DNA of 57,172 nt from Cylindrodendrum hubeiense (taxonomy: Eukaryota > Ascomycota > Sordariomycetes > Hypocreales > Nectriaceae): positions 1 to 57,172 of the forward strand of contig JAANBB010000256.1 of NCBI GenBank assembly GCA_014621425.1, read 5' to 3'. Below the pieces are notes generated by a model. The model was given only the letters and a program-made list of their open reading frames with translations. It made no database searches and was not told the origin of the DNA. Below, piece after piece: positions 10,530-51,442 of this stretch (within the stretch, counting starts at the first letter, position 1; every line of letters starts with the position of its first letter). A program made the position numbers and the translations under genes.

Positions 10530-12850
10530 TGCCAAATCGTGGTAGAGTGGCCGTTGAGAGATGCGACGCTGCGCTGCAACAAGTATTCCAGGTCCGGGTG
10601 TGTAACACGGCGCGATGCAAGGTGCGGACCGGTAGCAGAATCGGGTATCGGAAAGGGACGCAGCCGATTCGTCACACAACCGCAGCGTTGCAAGGGAGAT
10701 CAGCGGCCAAGACTTTGGATTTGAAAGACCATGGTGCGGCAGGAGAGTTATATGATGGAGTTGTCTGAGATGCTCGGGGAGTTGGGAGTCGAATGCGCGC
10801 CGGATAGGCGAGTGTCAGGCACCAGTCCACCACTCTGCTGATCCCACGCGGCTGGATCACCAGGTCCCTGTGTTTGGCTGCTAATTTGAGCACTGAGTGT
10901 CTCGGAAGGTCGGCTGGAGTGTGACGAGATGCACTAAAGGTGCAAAGGACAGGAGTCTAGCGAATGGGTGGCCGTCTGGGAGTTGTTGTGTGTCTTGTGG
11001 CCTGGGTCTCAGCACGACGAGGTTGATGACGAATATCGTGGGGGAAAAGGCGACATCCGAGCACTACACGATGGAGGAGGCGCCCCAACAAGAAAGACAG
11101 ACACAGGGACAGCTGGGAGACCGGGAGAATGAGAGAGAGAGAGAGAGAAAGACAGAACAAAGACACAATAGACCGGACTATTATTCCTATGCGGTTGATT
11201 ACCTCATTCTGTGGAGAGCAGCGAGTACGCGTAAGATCATGGTACAGCGGGAAATCCCTGATGACGACTCCTGGAGTCTTTTGCTTACCCCTACTCCGTC
11301 CGCACCTGGGCGCCTCCGGGTGTCGGGGTGGACACGGGGACGGATATGGAGGGGCCCAGATCGGGCCGTCGGCGTGGGCAAACGAGGCAAACGAGGCGAG
11401 AGCGCAGAGCATGTCCTAGTTGGAGCCGGAGCCCACATTCCTCCCGCGCCCATGACGAAGTGTCGTGGCGGTCGTCCCGCGTTGTGGGTTGTGAGCGGCG
11501 GTCTGGAGTTGAGAGAAGAGGTTGAGTGGTGGTGTCTGGACTAACATGACCGATGGTGCAATCGCCGCCTTGCCGCTTGCGGAATGGCGCGGCCGTTTTC
11601 CCGGTCTCCAGAACAGCGTTCGCAGGGCGAGTGTGTGTGTAGCGTGTGCGCAGTGTGCGCAGTGTGTGAGCGCGCTCCCAGTCAGCTGCGTCCCGCGGTC
11701 CCATGAGACAATTGGCATCCCAGAGCGGAAGCCAGAGCAGCGAACTCTCGCAGCACGACAGGCACGGATGAGACACACCCCACGCCCGGGTTCGCTTTGC
11801 AGCGAGTCTATTGGTAAGCTTCCAGAAGCCCACGAAAGGCGGCGGCAATCTCGGGGAGTTGAGGACGTCCCCCATGTCATTCCCAGACCCATCCCACGCC
11901 GACTTGCTCCCCCTTCGAAACAGGGCCCCCACCGTCTCTTATATACTACTCCGTAGTGCTCCGTATGAAGTGCATATATGCGGATACCATAGTCGTACGC
12001 CAGAGACGCAGCGGGCCGTGAAGGGGGTATGCAAGCATTCAGAAACCCCGGACCATCGGCATTCGTCAGCTCGCTCTCTGTCGGCTGCTGGTTAATAACC
12101 ATGCATGCCGTAGCCGGCCGGCCAAGAAGCCATGATGTGATTTCGGGTCAGCTTTTTGCTTTGTCATTTCTTCATTCATCTCTCATCTCTCATCTTCTTC
12201 ATCTTTTTATTCTCCATGTTGTTTTTCTCCAACTATAGACTTGTTACTCATCCCGCCTTGCCTGTTCCTTGCCGGGAAACTCGCTGGTCAGTCGACTGTT
12301 TTCTACAGTGACGTGCCCAAATACCACCCCAGCCTCCCAGCCCAGCCCAGCTCCCAACCTCTAACTAAGACGAACCCTTTGTGCGCTGGATGAAGAAAGT
12401 GAAGAAACACGGCATAGGCTGGCTAGACCGAGTCCGTACCCGAATAAATTATTCCGCCTCGGACAATATCTCAAGCTTGCAATCAGGTACTATAATGTGT
12501 TACAGATTGTCTTACTCCGTATTCTTCGCTTCATTGTCTCAAGGCTCTGGGTGCTGCTCCAACGCGAAACCAACACGGGTGTGCGCGCGAGAGACGGCTT
12601 GTCCCACCACTAGCCAGCCTCATCAGCCCTGTTCCAGCCTCCCCGCTAACAGGTTTGGCGCAGAGCCACAACCAGCATCAGCGCAGCATCGGCAGCAAGT
12701 GGCATATCCGCGCTGTCAACGCTCGTTGGCAATCGCTCATGTCATTGTCCCTGTCCTCCTTCTCTTCTTCCTCTCCCCTTCATAATCTTGCTTTCTCGTC
12801 AATGTCATTCGCCTAATTGAAACTCTTGAAACTCGCCGCCCAACGAAACC
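10530..12850. other. Intergenic between SulP permease and BUB2-like gene
   Basis: This 2.3-kb divergent promoter region has no recognisable coding sequence. A short (GA)n run is at 11131-11149. Several 100-230-aa frames on both strands are mutually overlapping, low in hydrophobic-core pattern and have no motifs. Confidence 0.65.
11131..11149. repeat. (GA)n microsatellite
   Basis: A GA dinucleotide run of about nine repeats, followed by AAAGACAG. Confidence 0.85.
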
Positions 12851-24204: not shown

Positions 24205-26389
24205 ATGTCTCTCTTCAACTGGGTGTCCCGGCGCGCTGGCGGCCTGAGCATGATCTGGCTGATCGCGCTGTGCTACTGGGTCATATCGCGGGAATCATCC
24301 CTCCACCAACATCGATACAAGTATGAACAGCCGGACAAGCAAGGCTCATACTATTCGTCAACATCCACCACCGGTGCCGGCATTTGGACGTTCGCCTTCG
24401 CCTACTATTGCCTCTTTATCCACGTCCTCGTCTGTCTCTTCCCGATGAGAGCTTGCTGGACCGTCTGGAACCTCACCAAGACCCTCAAGCGCGCCGCCCA
24501 CAGTCACTCTCTCCTGGACCTCAAGAAGCTCGCTTCACGCCGTGGATCATACACATCTGTATCAAGCTCCGAGACTCTTACCTCGAGCCACAATGGCGCT
24601 TCCTCCTCTACCACTAGCGAAGCTGGCGACCTCGACCCCGAGTCGTACACCGACGGCGTGTCCACGGCCGCCGACAATGTCATCCATGTCATCGTCATTC
24701 CGAACTACAAGGAGGAGTATGACACTCTCAAGGAGACGCTTGAGGTTCTGGCAAGCCACTCGCGCGCTCAGGATTCGTACGATGTAAGTCACTGCTTCTT
24801 ACCGCTGTCGTATCAACACTCTTCGCAATCGACAGTCCATGTTCATTGTCATTTGTGACGCGCAGCATTCTTTCAGACCTAGGATGGTTATTAACATGTG
24901 TGCGCCAGGTCTATCTCGCGATGGAGACGCGGGAGTCCAACGGTGAGACCAAGGCTCTGGGTCTCATGCAGGAATTCGCCAAAAAGTTCCGATCAATTGA
25001 TTTCACGATGCACCCGTCAGATATCCCTGGCGAGGCCGCTGGAAAGGGTAGCAACATTGGTTGGGCTGCTCGCAAGCTCAGTGCCAAGTACTCGATGGGG
25101 GTCAGAAAAGACGTAATTGTCACCGGGATTGATGGTATGTGCGCCTCTTGGCATCAGATTAGCATCTCACGGGTGCCACACCTTATGTAGCCTCCATTTG
25201 AGCTTGTTGCTGACCGGGGTTTATTTCCGACACTACAGCGGACAGCCACCTCGCTGCCGATTACTTCGCGCTCCTCACCAACATGCACTTGGCCTACCCC
25301 GAAACTGCCGCAACTACCATCTATTCGGCTCCAATCATTTTCGATCGTAATGCACACAACGTCCACCCTCTTGTCCGCGTTGCCGACATTGTCTGGGTCG
25401 CCGCCGGCATGTCCGGTCTCTACCCCGGTTCCAGCATCGCCCCACCTACATCGGTCTACTCCCTGCCTCTGGACCTCATCGACCGTGTTGGCGGTTGGGA
25501 TTGCGATGGTGAGGCCATTGGCGAGGACTTACACATGTACATCAAGTGTTTTTTTGCCCTCAACGGGAACCTGACCAGTCGTGTCATCAACTGCCCGGTC
25601 AGCCAGAGCAACGTCACTGGCGGAGGTGCCTCCGGGTGGCGCGGCGCATACGCTGATATCAATGCTCGGTACAAGCAGGCCCTTCGTCACATGTGGGGTG
25701 CCCTCGACACAGGCTTTGCGATGCGGAAGTTTGTGGAGATGTGGCAGGAGCGAAAGCACATTTCGCGAGCGTATCAACCTCTTCATTGCACTCAAGTTGA
25801 CGGTGCGGACCTGTTCATCCCTGAGAGCCAGTTTAGCGACGAAGGCGTGCACCAGCCTATCGAAAATGGTATCTTTTCCGATATTACCAAGGACACGATC
25901 AAGGAGCCCCATTGGGAGCACGTCTTTTATATGGTGCACCGAATCTTCGAGGCGCATTTCCTCCCGGTTCATATGGCTATTCTAGTCGTTGCATCTACGG
26001 TTTACGTCAAGGTCACGGAAGGCAAGGAAGACCCGCACAATCTGGCTTGGATCTTCAACTGGTGTAACGTGATCAGAATCTTCGGCTTCCTTCAAATCTC
26101 GATTTACCTGTTTATGTACGAGAGTTTCCATCGCGTTGGTGTCGCTGCCCGCGAGAGGGCCATGGTCAAGGCCGGTCTGGCTGACGGGATGGACTTCTCT
26201 CGACGAGGCCTTCGCAAGAACTGGAAAGACTACCTCATGGTCCCCCTGGTGGCCCCGCTGTATGGCACGATCCCAAGCGCCCAGGCGTTGATCTGCCAGC
26301 TCTGGAACCAGGACCTGGTGTATACGGTCAGCAAGAAGGCGACTCGACGACAAGCGCCGCCTGCGCCGAGAGTGGATGACATGGCCTAG
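24205..26389 (+). CDS. Membrane-bound family 2 glycosyltransferase
   Basis: Exons 24205-24783, 24909-25134 and 25239-26389 give 651 aa; introns are 125 and 104 bp with donors GTAAGT and GTATGT. Two N-terminal membrane segments (about residues 15-30 and 65-85) are followed by a Ser-rich loop. The catalytic domain starts at HVIVIPNYKEEYDTL and has the DxD-like GIDADSHLAADYF, the acceptor-site EAIGEDLHMY, and YKQALRHMWG at the QxxRW position. Three or so C-terminal helices follow (HMAILVVASTVYV, FGFLQISIYLFMY, YLMVPLVAPLYG). This is the layout of processive polysaccharide synthases such as cellulose and hyaluronan synthases, though the product is unknown. Probably plasma-membrane or Golgi. The ATG was picked at the first membrane segment; the frame is open 48 codons upstream in the CT-rich leader. 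Confidence 0.85.
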
Positions 26390-28996: not shown

Positions 28997-30666
28997 ATGT
29001 CTGCCTTCCCCGGCCCCGTCTACGGCCTCGAGGTCCCGCCTGGCGAGATCCTCATCCCGGCCGCGATGGAGTTCCCTGCCTCTGTAAGTTTCTGCTCCTA
29101 CCCATTGGCGCTGTCAAATCCCATGCCCTGGCTTCTTGCCGCTGTCCCGAGTGCGCCGACGCTCGACAGCGCTCGCCAGCAGCTCTCATGACCGCTGCCC
29201 ATGCCCATCGCATCTGCCTGCTGACCGCGAAAATCACAGTTCCGCATCACCATGGCTGCTGTCGATCCCACTGAGGAGCCTGAGGCCGATGCCGATGGCA
29301 ACGTCCCCTCCGTCCCTCGTTCTACTCTCCGACTGGTCAAGCGCGCCTTCCCCGGTCTTGACGACGAGGATGATGAGGTTGATGATGAGTACATGAAGGC
29401 CCTCCTCGCCGCCTCTGAGGATGATGATGAGGACGATGAGGATGAGGAGGCCAACGGCGGCCCCAGCGACCCCACCAAGTCCAAGAAGCAGAAGCAGGCT
29501 GCTGCCATCAAGAAGCTCATCGAGGCCAGCCAGGAGTCCTCCGATGAGGAGATGGCCGACGCCAAGCCCAACGGCAAGTCCAAGGGCAAGGCCAAGGCCG
29601 TCAAGGAGGATGAGGAGGAGGACGATGATGAGGAGGAAGACTCCGATGATGACAGCGAGGAGGGTGCTGATCTCGAGAACTTTGTCATCTGCACTCTCGA
29701 CACCGAGAGGGTACGACCAACCCCGTTGCCCGCTCCTTGATGCATTCAGATCGCTAACACTCTGTGCAGACCTACCAGCAGCCCCTTGACATCACCGTCA
29801 ACCACGGTGAGAAGGTCTACTTCGTTGTCACTGGTACTCACACCGTCTACCTCACCGGCAACTACATCCTGGATGACGAGGACTCTGAGGATGACGAGGA
29901 TGAGGACGACTACGACCTCTCCCCCGATGAGCTCGAGTACGCCCTAGGCGAGGAGGAGAGCGGCGATGAGAGCGACGAGCTCGACGGCCTCGACGACCCC
30001 CGTGTCACCGAGGTCGACTCTGAGGAGGAGGCCCCCAAGCTGGTCTCTGTCAAGAAGGGCAAGAACAAGCGCACCGCCGAGGAGGCCACCGAGGGTCTTG
30101 ATGAGCTCATCACCAAGGAGGACACCAAGCTGTCCAAGAAGCAGCAGAAGAAGCTCAAGAACAACAAGGGCGAGCCCGTCGTCACCGAGGACAGCAAGAA
30201 GAAGGTCCAGTTCGCCAAGAACCTCGAGCAGGGCCCCACCGGCTCCGATGTTAAGGCCAAGCAGACCAAGGCTGCCAGCGGCGTCAAGATTGTCCAGGGC
30301 GTCACTATTGATGACCGCACCGTCGGAAACGGCCGCACTGCCAAGAGCGGCGACACCGTCGGTGTCCGATACATCGGCAAGCTCGCCAACGGCCAGCAGT
30401 TTGATGGTGAGTGATGGTAACCCTTGAACCGCGATTGTTCCGCATACTGACGCACCGCAGCCAACAAGAAGGGCAAGCCTTTTGCCTTCAAGGTCGGCAA
30501 GGGCCAGGTCATCAAGGGCTGGGACGTCGGTATCGTCGGCATGGCCATTGGTGGCGAGCGCCGCCTGACCATTCCCGCCCAGCTCGCCTACGGCTCCCGT
30601 GGCATGCCCGGCATCCCCGCCAACAGCCAGCTGACCTTCGACGTCAAGCTGCTTGAGATCAAGTGA
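28997..30666 (+). CDS. FPR4: Nucleolar FKBP-type prolyl isomerase, Fpr3/Fpr4-like
   Basis: Four exons: 28997-29083, 29240-29710, 29770-30406 and 30461-30666, 466 aa; introns 156, 59 and 54 bp. The N-terminus ([14 protein letters not shown]...[10 protein letters not shown]) is the nucleoplasmin-like domain, followed by long Asp/Glu stretches and Lys-rich patches, which are typical of histone-binding nucleolar proteins. The last ~110 residues are a complete FKBP domain: [67 protein letters not shown]. Known for yeast Fpr3/Fpr4: prolyl isomerisation on histone tails and histone chaperone activity, FK506 and rapamycin binding. Conserved aromatic pocket residues (Tyr, Phe, Trp) are present, so the enzyme should be active. 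The first ATG fits the domain start. Confidence 0.95.
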
Positions 30667-31470
30667 GCGTAGGGCATATGCCAAGCGTTCTTGATCCAGC
30701 GTCCACGTCGAGTGGGCGGCGTGTACTAATACCCTGCTGTGGCCCGCCGCCTATGGATATGAGTGGGCTATCAGCTGGGTGATGACGATTTTCTGGTTTC
30801 CGGGGTTCCTTCCATCTGCTCACTTTGTACGCTACATGCGGTGATGAGGAGCCTTAGACCTGCGCCTTCTGCAGAGATCCGGTGTCCGCCAAAAGGACGT
30901 CGCGACGCAGTCGGATAGAGCGGGGATGATGGGGCGAGGACCTGCATTGCATGAATGGCGTATGACGAAAAGGTTTTCTCTTTGATGCCGTAGGATGTCC
31001 CTCGGCAGTTGCAACGGCGGTTGATTAGGGTCGGTTGTAGGTAATAGGGATTTGCCAATAAAGACTTCTTATGTTGAAACAAGACCCTCCTTTGGGAGTC
31101 TCCCCGTGATGTTGACGTATTTGGACCACGAGTAGCCTGAGTGAAGAGTTGTAGACTTGACCTGTTGCCGTGTTTATGTCGTCTTTCGTGGCCGGTCGTT
31201 TGTTCCTTCCCAGTGAAACCTCTTCGGCAGGTCGTGGGCACTCACTGTTGCTTGCCGCGTTAGCCAAGGGCGGCCTCTATCCCCAACTCTCGGCATTTTC
31301 TTACCCCCGACGTCAATCATCAACTGTCTCCGGCCCAACAAGCTACATGCAACACGGCTGTGTATCCATTTCTTTCATTCTTTCATTCGTTGGAGACCCC
31401 ATCGCTTCGTGCTGACTTCATTACTTGTAACCGTAGCCCGTCTACATGTTGGCTACCCTGGAACAACACC
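30667..31470. other. Intergenic between FKBP and PUK1-like kinase
   Basis: 3' flank of the FKBP gene and promoter of the kinase. No gene is recognised; minus-strand frames are Arg/Ser-rich chance readings. Confidence 0.6.
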
Positions 31471-34195
31471 ATGGGTCGTCCAACCCTGCACAACAAAGGC
31501 AGCCAGTTTTTTATGCATACGCTCTCAACTGACCAAATCGATTCCACTGCCGAATCATCTACACCATGTTTCCCTCTCCAAGAGGCTACTGGCGACCGGC
31601 ATGTTCTGAGACTTCGTCGCACCAGCTCAAGGGTATGGTCCGACATCCGGGGCGCTATCAAGGCGATCGGGAGAAGCAGCAATGACAGTAAGAGGGATAT
31701 TTAACATTTTAACAAGTCAACAACTCATCGTCTATAGGCTGTAAAGACTCGACAGTCGCCAAATGGTCCCTTAAAGACATTTCCTTCGAATCCTGCAGAG
31801 GCAAGGGGGTCGCGTTGCATGAACAGGGACGAACCCCCTCCCCAACGCCCCAAGTCAAAGGCATAACTCCTAGGGATCTCCTTAGAAAACTACGACTAAG
31901 ACATCTGGCGCTCGATTCAAACACCACAGTCGTGCTCCGAACACCTCTCCTAAGGGGTAGAAGTTCACTCCAGGCCCTCACTAGTGTCCAATTCCCATCA
32001 TCATCAAGCGAGTTCGACACGTCTCACTCTTCCAATGAGACGAGCAAGATATCTACAGTCGCTGATGGCTCAACGAGAAAGACCTCGGTGGACTCACGGT
32101 TCTCGTGTTCCATCAAACCCACGGCAAACAGACGGCATAGCAGGCGTAATCCATGGACACGCTCAAGCCCAGAGGGAGCAGCCCTGAACACCATTCAAGA
32201 GTCGGGTATATCTTTGATCCAACCTACCGTTGTAACGGTGGAGAGAGCTGCAGCAGCCAAGATCTACCTAGAAACTAAGTTCAGCGAGCTGTTGCACAAA
32301 CCCAACACGCGGGGAGTCCGGCGCCAGTATCTCGAGTCCCAACTCTACTACAGCCCTCACCTTACCCGAGAGCAAAAACAAGCAATTCGGGAGTCCTTCA
32401 ACAACCAAGAGACATGGCACCTGAGAGAAATACGCGTTATGAAGTCACAAAGCCTTGCTCTCCGGGGAGAGAAATCAGTTGGCTCGTATCTTGAGAATTA
32501 CGAGCCCCTTCAAGTCTTGGGAAAGGGAAGTTTTGGTGTTGTGCGACTGGTTCGAGAAAAGCATGCCCCAGGATACACCTTTTCAAGGCAAGTGTACGCC
32601 ATGAAAGTGATCCGAAAGTCCGAGATGTTGAGAAGCTGCCAAGAGGGCCATTTGAGGGCCGAAAGAGACTTCCTCGTTGATTCTGAGGGATCGAACTGGT
32701 GCGTCCTTTCAGCTTCACTAAAATCTCAAGAATAGACTGCTAACGTTGGCCTCCAGGGTTGTCCCCTTAATCTCTAGCTTTCAAGACATCGACAATCTCT
32801 ACTTGGTAATGGAATATATGCCCGGTGGCGACTTCTTGGGGCTGTTGATCCGAGAAAACATTCTGCATGAATCTGTTGCGCGCTTCTACATAGCCGAGAT
32901 GATCCTAGCTGTCGAGGAAGCCCATCGCCTCAAATTCATTCACCGAGACATTAAACCCGACAACTTTCTCATCTCCGCATCTGGGCATCTCAAGATCTCG
33001 GATTTTGGACTTGCCTTTGATGGTCACTGGTCCCATGACGCCTCTTACTACAACTGTCATCGGTATTCGTTGGTCCGAAAGCTTGGGCTCAATGTCAATG
33101 GAGACGAAGCTGACCAAAAGAGTAACCGCGGCATTCTGACACAATTCGAATGGTATAAATCTCTGGTAGAGGGCCTTGAGAGACACGGAAAGTTGCCCAT
33201 CGACGCAGACAAAGACCTCGAGAATCTCATCGGCTGGAGAAACCAGCATGGAAATCGCACCGCCGCGAATTCCGTTGTCGGAACGAGCCAATACATGGCC
33301 CCTGAAGTTGTCTTGGGGCAGAAATACGACGGCAGATGCGATTAGTAGAGCATCGGCATCATCCTGTACGAGTGTCTGTACGGACACACGCCGTTCCTGT
33401 CAGATGAAGGGCGGAAGCAAACCAAGAGGAATATTCAAGTGAGTATCGCCTCAAGGTTCGATAGTAATTGTCTTGTCAAAGCTCACACGTCGACAGGATT
33501 ACAAGAGCCACTTTCGATTTCCCCAGAGACCTCTTGCCAGCGACAAATGCAAAGACTTGATATTCCGTCTGATACAAGACAAGGAACATCGCCTCTGTTC
33601 AAGAAGATACTACATGAAGGATTGTGGTCAGCCTGATAGCTCCAGATATAGGGACTTCTTTGGGCGGCACGTCTTCCCGGATGACGCAGAGGACATCAAG
33701 TCGCACCGTTGGTTCAAGAATGTGCCTTGGGACCGCCTGCAGACAATCGCACCTCCATTCATCCCTCATGTCCATAGCGCCGAAGATACTCATTATTTTG
33801 ACGAATCAGATGTAATCGAGGATTGGTCGAAGTCGTCGCCTTCGGGGGTTCTCTTAACCCCTGAAGATGTCCGGCAAGTGCTGCACGATTTCGAGCCGCG
33901 CGTGCAGAGCCAAGCAATCAAGCTCATCGAATCGCCGTTCGACTCCACAAAGTTACGCAAGATGGACCGTCAGATCGAGGAATCACAGGAGTTGAGGCTG
34001 GAAGAGAAAGAGATGCTCAAGCACTTTGTGAGGCTTTATGGACAGAAGGATCGCAAGCGACCCAGGGACATTTTGCTGCGGGACCAGGGCATCAAGGACG
34101 GCGTAATGGACATCAGGAAGAAGACGGCCTTTGTGGGCTATACGTGGCGGAGGATGAGACCAGGAGGTTATACGGCCACGAGAATAATCGACTGA
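31471..34195 (+). CDS. PUK1: AGC/NDR-type kinase, PUK1 ortholog, with two in-frame UAG codons
   Basis: Four exons: 31471-31687, 31738-32698, 32757-33438 and 33497-34195, 852 aa if both UAGs are read as Trp. Introns are 50, 58, 58 bp. An N-terminal Ser/Arg-rich region is followed by the NDR N-terminal regulatory segment (AAAKIYLETKFSELLHKPN...). The kinase domain has LGKGSFGVVRLV, YAMKVIRK, HRDIKPDNFLIS, SDFGLAFDG, the long NDR activation insert and VVGTSQYMAPEVV. The C-terminus has the hydrophobic motif FVGYTW. After YDGRCD come TAG TAG (33343-33348, codons 589-590) and then SIGIILYECLYGHTPFL; the family has Trp-Trp there. Everything else is open and conserved. In Fusarium graminearum the perithecium-specific kinase PUK1 has the same tandem UAGs, edited to UGG in sexual tissue (known). 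Same mechanism here is inferred. Alternative: recent pseudogene. Confidence 0.85.
33335..33354 (+). promoter_or_regulatory. Hairpin presenting the UAG UAG editing sites
   Basis: GATGC (33335-33339) pairs perfectly with GCATC (33350-33354), leaving a 10-nt loop GATTAGTAGA that contains both TAGs. Each A has U before and G after. Fungal A-to-I editing is reported to favour U at -1 and hairpin loops, so this fits an editing substrate. The stem is short; beyond it only C-G and G-C pairs past a mismatch add stability. Confidence 0.55.
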
Positions 34196-49328: not shown

Positions 49329-51442
49329 TTACATGGAAACAATCCGACCAGCCGGGGCACTCGCGCGGGTTCGAGGCCGGAGGTTGATGACCGTCTCTAG
49401 TTCTCGGAGCATGCCCTTAGTTGCGTCGATTTGTTGTCGTGCAATTGCCTTGTGCTCCCGGTCCTCCTTCATCTTGAATATCCTCTCCTCTCTTGTAAGC
49501 ATGCTTCGGGGTCGGGGTCGTGCTACTGCCTCAAACACCTCGGGGGCATCGTGGTCCACCGAACCATTGTACTCAGAACCTGGTGGCGACTCGCCCGTGA
49601 GTGCTTTCAGCGCGTCGATAGCGGTGCCGCTTTCGTCGACAGTGGTGAGCCCGCTCAGGGAGCTGGCCGGGGATATCAGAGTGCTTATGGACGAAAGCCT
49701 CTTTTCGTTTCTATCGATCCCGAGGGCCAAGGCGGCTCGGCCTTCTTCCCAAGCTGCCATAAGGTCCTTCAAGTCCACGCCAATGGATTCGAATTGGGAC
49801 ATGAGGTTGGGCCCTAGTTCCGAAATGTCGTTCGAGTCGTTGAGTGTCCTATCCGACTCCTCCCGCAGGAGTTGAAGCTTGGCTTGCAGCCCCCTAATTC
49901 CGGTAGACAGCGAGTTAAGCTTCCGAAGCTGAGCCCGCCAACGCTCCCTCCCAGGTGTCAGGGCATTCTTTGGGTTTGGTGACGATGGAAATGGGAATGC
50001 TTGACACATGTTAGTATGGGATCGAGGTGCTAGGTCACCTAGAGACACTTACTCTCTTCCTCGCTGAGGATGGTCTGCAGCCTATCATATGCAGTATACG
50101 TCGAGGCATTGATACTGCGAAGAGACTCAACTGCCGTCGTCCATCGAAGCAAGTCATTTGCGTCGCCGCTGGCATCAAGAGCTAATAATGCGCAGAGGAA
50201 CATTTTACGGATGGTGGAAAACCGGGCGGCGAGGATTTTCAGAGTCCTCAGTGACTCCGTGTCCTCAAATTCATCCACATCGAAACCGCGTTGGGCATCA
50301 GATATGTCGAAATCACTAACGTCATAGATGTCATAGTACTTCTCCAAGTCTGTCTGTTCTGCGAACCCATTCACAACAGTGCACACTTGATTGTACGTCT
50401 GGAGGACGCCAGAAAGGGAGTTCTTCAAGGCCCTGCGTAACCGGACGCATTTCCGAGTTTGAGTACGGTCCTCGATCCGGCTGATGGGAGGCAATGGTGC
50501 GCTGCTGCATAATCGTTAGATGTTTGGTTCCACTATCGAATTTGGGGGCTAGGGGACTGACATTCGGTACCCACGGGACACCAATTCCACCTCTTGGATA
50601 AGGGACAGGGCAGCCCCAGAAGCGCTGTCATGACTGTGGGAGTTTTCGATAAATTTCGTGATTTCGGATAGAGACTGCGATCGTCGATATCGCAACCATT
50701 GTCTCCTCATATACACCTGTCCCAACAGAATGCTGGCTGCACAGAGGAGGAGGAGGAAAACAAGTCGTTTCCGCGTGATCCCATTTTCCACGACCCAGCT
50801 CAATATCACTGCAACTGCTAAAGCAGCAAGTACTGACGCAATAATGCCCTCGGTCGACAATAGAGATTGGTCCTCGTCACTCGCGGGCGCCACACCGACG
50901 TCGGCACTGAGTTGGTGCTGTCCTAGCCCAGAATGGCCGCTTAACAACTGGGAGGCGATGATGGTATAGCGGAACTGTTCGAGAAACTTGGCATTGTCGG
51001 CCCGATCGATGCTCGCTGCTACCACGGCCTAGAGGGTGAGCTGGTTAGGGGGCGGCGAACAGAGGACAGGGAATGAAGGACATGGCAGACGCACCGAGTA
51101 TTTTTTCCTAATAGATCGCAACGAGACAGGTTTCGGGACCTCGACGCGGAGGGGGCCCGGGACCTTATTGCGGAATCTCGCCTTAACCAGAGGTCGACCT
51201 GTAGGCGCAAAGGGAGAGGGACTGGGAGGTGGTGAAGGACTGGATCGGCCAGCCGAGGATTCGGGATCGGGAGTCGTCGCACCGGGCGCCCAGTCTAGCT
51301 GCGGCTCATCTCCCCCATCTTGAGCAAAGGTTAGTTGAAGTTCTGTTGCACCGAGGATAGAAGGCGCAAGGGGTTGGGCGGAATGGGACTCACCTCTGAG
51401 GTACTCGGCTAAAGGCGACTCCTCATATACCACGGGCTCCAT
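49329..51442 (-). CDS. Vezatin / Inp2-like membrane protein
   Basis: Five exons: 51442-51394, 51318-51095, 51028-50562, 50504-50053 and 49999-49329, 620 aa; introns 75, 66, 57 and 53 bp. The first is 75 bp, has no stop and keeps frame if retained. Two close membrane helices (IIASVLAALAVAVILSWVV and RLVFLLLLCAASILLGQVY, roughly residues 150-195) follow the motif LEQFRYTIIASQLLSG. A helical myosin-binding region comes next (ISRIEDRTQTRKCVRLRRALKNSLSGV) and then coiled-coil. This is the vezatin-type family; in yeasts the counterpart Inp2 is the peroxisomal receptor for myosin V, moving peroxisomes to the bud. Function in this fungus is inferred. Exon 3 ends at a GTCAGT donor. Confidence 0.75.

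Follow-up and report, generated by a model that had tools for sequence, protein, structure and literature searches.

The stretch of DNA analyzed here (the window) comprises 57,172 nucleotides of contig JAANBB010000256.1 of Cylindrodendrum hubeiense (Nectriaceae, Hypocreales, Sordariomycetes). It carries a gene for an NDR-type kinase, 852 codons in four exons, in which codons 589 and 590 are a tandem pair of in-frame TAGs, preceded by an FKBP-type peptidyl-prolyl isomerase gene. The features of the locus are as follows.

29758..30666, forward strand: exons of the FKBP-type peptidyl-prolyl isomerase, with nucleoplasmin-like and FKBP_C domains; syntenic neighbour
31471..31687, forward strand: kinase exon 1, with the predicted start ATG at 31471, the earliest in-frame ATG of the open reading frame
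31738..32698, forward strand: kinase exon 2, with the N-terminal region, the start of the kinase domain, the Gly loop, and the catalytic Lys
32757..33438, forward strand: kinase exon 3, with HRD, DFG, the NDR-type insert, APE, both TAG codons, and helix F
33335..33354, forward strand: predicted hairpin, a 5-bp stem (GAUGC/GCAUC) with a 10-nt loop, GAUUAGUAGA, that holds both adenines
33343..33348, forward strand: tandem TAG TAG, codons 589-590, predicted A-to-I sites at 33344 and 33347
33497..34195, forward strand: kinase exon 4, with the end of the C-lobe, the AGC tail, the hydrophobic motif FVGYTW, and the TGA stop

Once the exons are joined across three GT-AG introns of 50, 58, and 58 nt (31688-31737, 32699-32756, and 33439-33496), a single frame runs from the ATG at 31471 to a TGA whose last base is 34195; its sole interruptions are the two TAG codons, whose adenines are read in the window sequence at 33344 and 33347. 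The alternative frames contain 10 and 8 stops within the 261 codons past the pair; chance therefore does not account for the absence of further stops in the kinase frame. Kinase motifs are found on both sides of the interruption (GKGSFG, YAMKV, HRDIKPDN, DFGL, MAPE, EHRL, and the C-terminal FVGYTW). The part before the stops matches the Pfam kinase domain with 132 bits, and the piece after the stops, taken alone, gives a weak match, of 23.7 bits against a cut-off of 31.7, to the corresponding end of the profile. An earlier reading made from the sequence alone had described a kinase that is open before and after the stops with its downstream motifs intact, and the four-exon translation bears this description out.

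Matches to nucleoplasmin-like (NPL) and FKBP_C domains at 29758-30663 identify a conserved gene neighbour upstream of the kinase. The FKBP and kinase genes are arranged head to tail (29758-31471). Three homologous models (P0010, P0039, and P0112, from Stachybotrys, Fusarium longipes, and Paramyrothecium) place FKBP and kinase domains in one protein, and these fusions are probably prediction errors. Elsewhere in the window, pairs of same-frame open reading frames of at least 120 codons each and parted by one stop occur 13 times, the stop being TAG in 4, TAA in 4, and TGA in 5; the TAGs lie at 25188-25190 on the forward strand and at 51029-51031, 25982-25984, and 11416-11418 on the reverse strand.

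The identity of the kinase follows from comparison both outside and inside the genome. Among relatives of solved structure, the closest is CBK1 of yeast; its aligned sequence is CDWWSLG, with Trp-Trp facing both TAG codons. The sequence-only reading had stated that NDR kinases have Trp-Trp at codons 589-590, and position, frame, and this alignment agree with it. Two paralogues in the same genome, COT1/CBK1-like, also read CDWWSLG without stops there, and a third, DBF2-like, reads VDYWSLG, likewise without a stop (the paralogue names are our own labels). As these three NDR-like paralogues have Trp-Trp or Tyr-Trp in their DNA, the stops are peculiar to the PUK1-like gene among the four compared. 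The COT1/CBK1-like kinase (APEIFTG...CDWWSLG) is present in two copies, at C246:56645-57540 and C698:1771-2680, where one was expected. A search of the genome for near-identical matches to the window kinase protein returned only the window's own gene. Kinase matches with two internal TAGs on contigs C17 and C341 were considered as candidate edited kinases and rejected, as by eye they appear to be ordinary intron-spanning frames.

Homologues of the window kinase were taken as the best 120 of 2144 matches, from 7997 scored candidates. The top seven are from Nectriaceae, including Fusarium, and in a tree the window kinase clusters with Neonectria, Dactylonectria, and Thelonectria, within Nectriaceae. 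Fusarium culmorum is named among these 120, F. graminearum PUK1 and Neurospora crassa stk-21 are not found there by name, and none of the 120 is a C. hubeiense kinase. On these sequence comparisons, the window kinase is the C. hubeiense orthologue of PUK1/stk-21, an NDR-type AGC kinase.

The state of the site in the 120 homologues was read from protein models, in which skipping of the site points to a stop indirectly, and group labels, here and for the 120 RID homologues below, were taken from the names. Trp-Trp is present in 41 and a gap in 79. All 25 Nectriaceae models skip the site, as do 44 of the 46 from Hypocreales outside Nectriaceae, the two with Trp-Trp being Clonostachys and Geosmithia. 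Sordariomycetes outside Hypocreales are gapped in 10 of 22 cases; the model restarts at the second Trp in 9 of these, and the remaining one (Verticillium) has a longer skip. Trp-Trp is found in all 23 Leotiomycetes, with no gaps, and in all 4 unnamed metagenome proteins. To our knowledge, editing of this kind has not been found in Leotiomycetes. For the conservation of the TAG pair, which the sequence-only reading had proposed to assess by aligning orthologues across Sordariomycetes, these models indicate at least one stop at the site throughout the listed Nectriaceae and in nearly all other listed Hypocreales, and the remaining Sordariomycetes skip the site in fewer than half of the cases.

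The point at which the gapped models resume gives additional insight. If a predictor takes a TAG as splice acceptor, resumption at the Ser after the pair would mark a TAG at the second codon, and resumption at the second Trp would mark one at the first. Of the 79 gapped models, 22 restart precisely at this Ser and 13 precisely at the second Trp; in the other 44 the skip extends further, too far to tell which codon is the stop. The 71 models of the mostly gapped Hypocreales (25 Nectriaceae and 46 others) include 22 that resume at the Ser and 4 at the second Trp. Two calibrations agree with published states: Pyricularia rows have Trp-Trp, the state that PMC4817773 gives for Magnaporthe oryzae, and a gap is found in the Fusarium rows, in line with PUK1. 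The same source also describes genomic G's at the site in Claviceps paspali, a species outside the listed homologues; the 12 Claviceps rows within the list are all gapped. In a quick tree built with the site region left out, the Trp-Trp state takes four changes, a rough count, since the tree has several long branches (P0108, P0064, P0073, P0034, and others). It could be speculated, with some doubt on our part, that Hypocreales added a second UAG to an edited first one that parts of Sordariales and Xylariales also have, and that the pair, kept in most of the order, is an old and selectively kept two-lock device; Clonostachys and Geosmithia would then have Trp-Trp either by reversal in DNA or by retention of an older state.

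The sequence beyond the stops is under constraint. Compared with the 23 Leotiomycetes, the window protein has an identity of 0.670 before and 0.498 after the stops, a downstream/upstream ratio of 0.743. The same ratio spans 0.685-0.799 in 12 Sordariomycete genes with Trp-Trp and is 0.724 in Clonostachys and 0.717 in Geosmithia. Against the three nearest homologues compared (P0001-P0003), identity is 0.429-0.664 in the N-terminal region, 0.857-0.925 in the kinase part that precedes the stops, and 0.764-0.873 in the parts that follow them. The gap between tail and N-terminal region is smaller against P0004 (0.745 and 0.645 versus 0.504) and slight against P0005 (0.661 and 0.566 versus 0.536). 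Judged by protein identity ratio, constraint on the post-stop sequence matches that of genes with Trp-Trp, in keeping with purifying selection. Such a pattern would not be expected if the gene had already died when the clade arose, and the earlier argument from the intact downstream region is upheld.

The predicted hairpin around the site is the best fold in three of four stretches folded, and the fourth has a 9-nt loop that also contains both adenines. In 61-nt stretches centred on each A, the probabilities of lying in a hairpin loop are 0.95 and 0.94; for comparison, of 925 TAGs taken from the two strands of the window, the best fold places 34.3% in a hairpin loop, and 15.5% have a probability of at least 0.9. 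Shuffled sequences fold just as favourably (z of 0.50 and -0.14). The preferred context for editing, which is not a required one, is a U at -1 and an A in a hairpin loop, and the TAG pair has the first and, by prediction, the second. The predicted placement in a hairpin loop lends mild support to editing.

The genome also encodes a likely component of the editing machinery. Published work assigns the editing to Tad2-Tad3 with Ame1 (PMC11087585, PMC11156358). The genome has three matches to DUF726, on contigs C30, C674, and C137. The AME1-like protein on C30 (locus L006) carries MV at 495-496, S526, D584, and H624, each five positions before those of F. graminearum Ame1 as numbered in PMC11087585. 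The other two DUF726 proteins are without MV, having LD and HN by alignment or SL and AH by distance from the active-site Ser. In the alignment of 120 listed AME1-like homologues, MV is present in 109, IV in 8, and LV, TV, and FV in one each. By these residues, the genome encodes a Sordariomycete-type Ame1-like activator of editing, marked by the diagnostic MV at the Tad3 contact.

A second candidate editing target in the C. hubeiense genome is RID, a published target in F. graminearum (PMC4817773). The RID-like DNA methyltransferase on contig C65 has one in-frame TAG (locus L009, nt 1243-1245). Among the 120 listed RID homologues, models from outside Nectriaceae have Trp in this column in 65 of 69 cases and a gap in 4; those from Nectriaceae have Trp in 0 of 51, with 46 gaps and 5 Asn at a spliced junction, and many resume directly after the column. 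The A of this TAG is not predicted to lie in a hairpin loop (probability 0.001), and here the fold gives no support.

MAT1-1-1, with an HMG-box piece, is on contig C59 (locus L023), beside frames that we label MAT1-1-2 and the DNA lyase-like APN2. By eye, none of the nine HMG matches of the genome is a MAT1-2-1-like box, although intron-split boxes could escape such a count. It may therefore be that the strain is the MAT1-1 partner of an outcrossing species. The original description of C. hubeiense, under the name Neonectria hubeiensis, was based on its sexual form; a literature search found no paper combining Neonectria and RNA editing.

Several alternatives can be weighed against these results. 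TGG to TAG is a change within the reach of RIP, and the gene could be dying through G-to-A mutations, for example by RIP on the other strand (TGGTGG to TAGTAG), with loss of full-length translation. The RIP indices of the gene are, however, unremarkable (product 0.573, substrate 1.247), none of 113 one-kb stretches of the window has a RIP signature, and 12 other Trp codons of the kinase gene are intact. A post-stop identity ratio like that of Trp-Trp genes, a tail more conserved than the N-terminal region (clearly so against P0001-P0003), and the skipped site in every listed Nectriaceae model also argue against decay, which we regard as very unlikely. A very recent death confined to this strain may be compatible with the protein data. 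That the TAGTAG lies inside a real intron is what many database models of relatives assume when they splice the site out, and a TAG is usable as an acceptor. Nevertheless, scoring of GTR donors found no GTA or GTG that, paired with the second TAG, would make an intron of 36-140 nt, and the last 60 nt contain no CTRAY or YTNAY branch motif. Splicing would also take out some of the core that lies between APE and helix F, the start of the removed stretch varies among species, and the intron predicted in F. graminearum stays in the cDNA (PMC4817773, PMC7306014), all of which leaves a real intron extremely improbable.

It is equally hard to credit that the short product is itself functional or that ribosomes read through the unedited stops. 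Retention of the stops would fit such an explanation, which has no further support in the sequence. Two consecutive stops, though, make read-through very inefficient, and the parts missing from the short form stay conserved. In addition, PMC7306014 reports that non-editable puk1 and stk-21 alleles fail to complement. Finally, the transcript could be edited by another enzyme or at another stage, such as by the OLD deaminases that act on zao mRNAs upon virus infection, or in hyphae. A further A-to-I system is described in Sordariomycetes (PMC12754623), and hyphal editing, although rare, is known in F. graminearum (PMC11169179). We nevertheless consider this a slim prospect, as PUK1 editing in F. 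graminearum is perithecial (PMC4817773), FgTad2 purified from perithecia is active on PUK1 mRNA in vitro, and a fip5 mutant loses editing at the two A's of PUK1 (PMC11156358).

Editing of the kinase mRNA at both UAG codons in perithecia, giving a full-length PUK1/stk-21 orthologue, is thus by far the most probable explanation. The sequence-level predictions tested support it, namely orthology, conservation of the site, constraint, UAGs in a predicted hairpin loop, the lack of RIP and of a splice donor, and the presence of an Ame1-like gene. By this mechanism, an NDR-type kinase acting in the sexual stage would be transcribed with a stop at codon 589, right after the helix-F Asp, such that the unedited product would lack the end of the C-lobe, the AGC tail, and the hydrophobic motif. 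As perithecia develop, Ame1 would activate the tRNA deaminases Tad2-Tad3, which would act as a pair on both hairpin-loop adenines, and the resulting inosine, read as G, would convert both UAGs to Trp codons. Full-length kinase would then be made in perithecia only. Editing itself, its enzyme, its stage, and a role in ascospore formation and release are carried over by analogy from F. graminearum and N. crassa.

The site, the enzyme, and the biology are already published for relatives, and for C. hubeiense the gene structure, orthology, site conservation, downstream constraint, and Ame1-like activator are obtained here from genomic and protein comparison. What our analysis suggests beyond the published work is the Cylindrodendrum case, the likely state of the site in 120 homologues, and genome-level signs of editing capacity. 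The founding case of stage-specific fungal mRNA recoding would thereby extend to another genus. For the 25 Nectriaceae homologues listed, the publicly available models of the kinase appear to be wrong in its active core, since gene prediction passes over the stops. Across the 120 homologues, the likely Trp-Trp, UAG-Trp, and double-stop states allow a comparative test of whether the stops are an adaptive lock or a neutral passenger. The diagnostic residues of Ame1, together with RID and MAT1-1, illustrate a way of predicting editing in species without RNA data.

The closest known system is PUK1 (FGRRES_01058) of F. graminearum, which is also an NDR-type kinase with a tandem UAG in the kinase domain. 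The sequence-only reading had correctly stated that its tandem UAG is edited to UGG UGG in sexual tissue. PMC4817773 reports that UAGUAG becomes UGGUGG in 90% of perithecial transcripts and that automated annotation had hidden the stops in a false intron, much as the models of relatives skip the site here. The pair occupies codons 611-612 in PUK1 (our arithmetic from A1831 and A1834), as opposed to 589-590 in C. hubeiense, which lies outside Fusarium and for which editing is predicted, whereas that of PUK1 was measured. The orthologous kinase stk-21 (NCU03242) of N. crassa had been named there as an edited relative of PUK1; it is indeed edited in perithecia, but from UAGUGG to UGGUGG, with a single UAG at the first codon instead of a pair (PMC4817773), and its non-editable allele does not restore ascospore formation (PMC4817773, PMC7306014). 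FgRID, FgAMA1, AMD1, and other premature-stop-correction genes share a coding-region UAG corrected in the sexual stage, in other proteins (PMC4817773, PMC11156358). CHE1 and ZAO likewise undergo UAG-to-Trp recoding, and the stop in CHE1 also yields wrong gene models, but they are zinc-finger factors, recoded in hyphae or in response to virus, and ZAO is edited by OLD deaminases (PMC11169179, PMC12754623).
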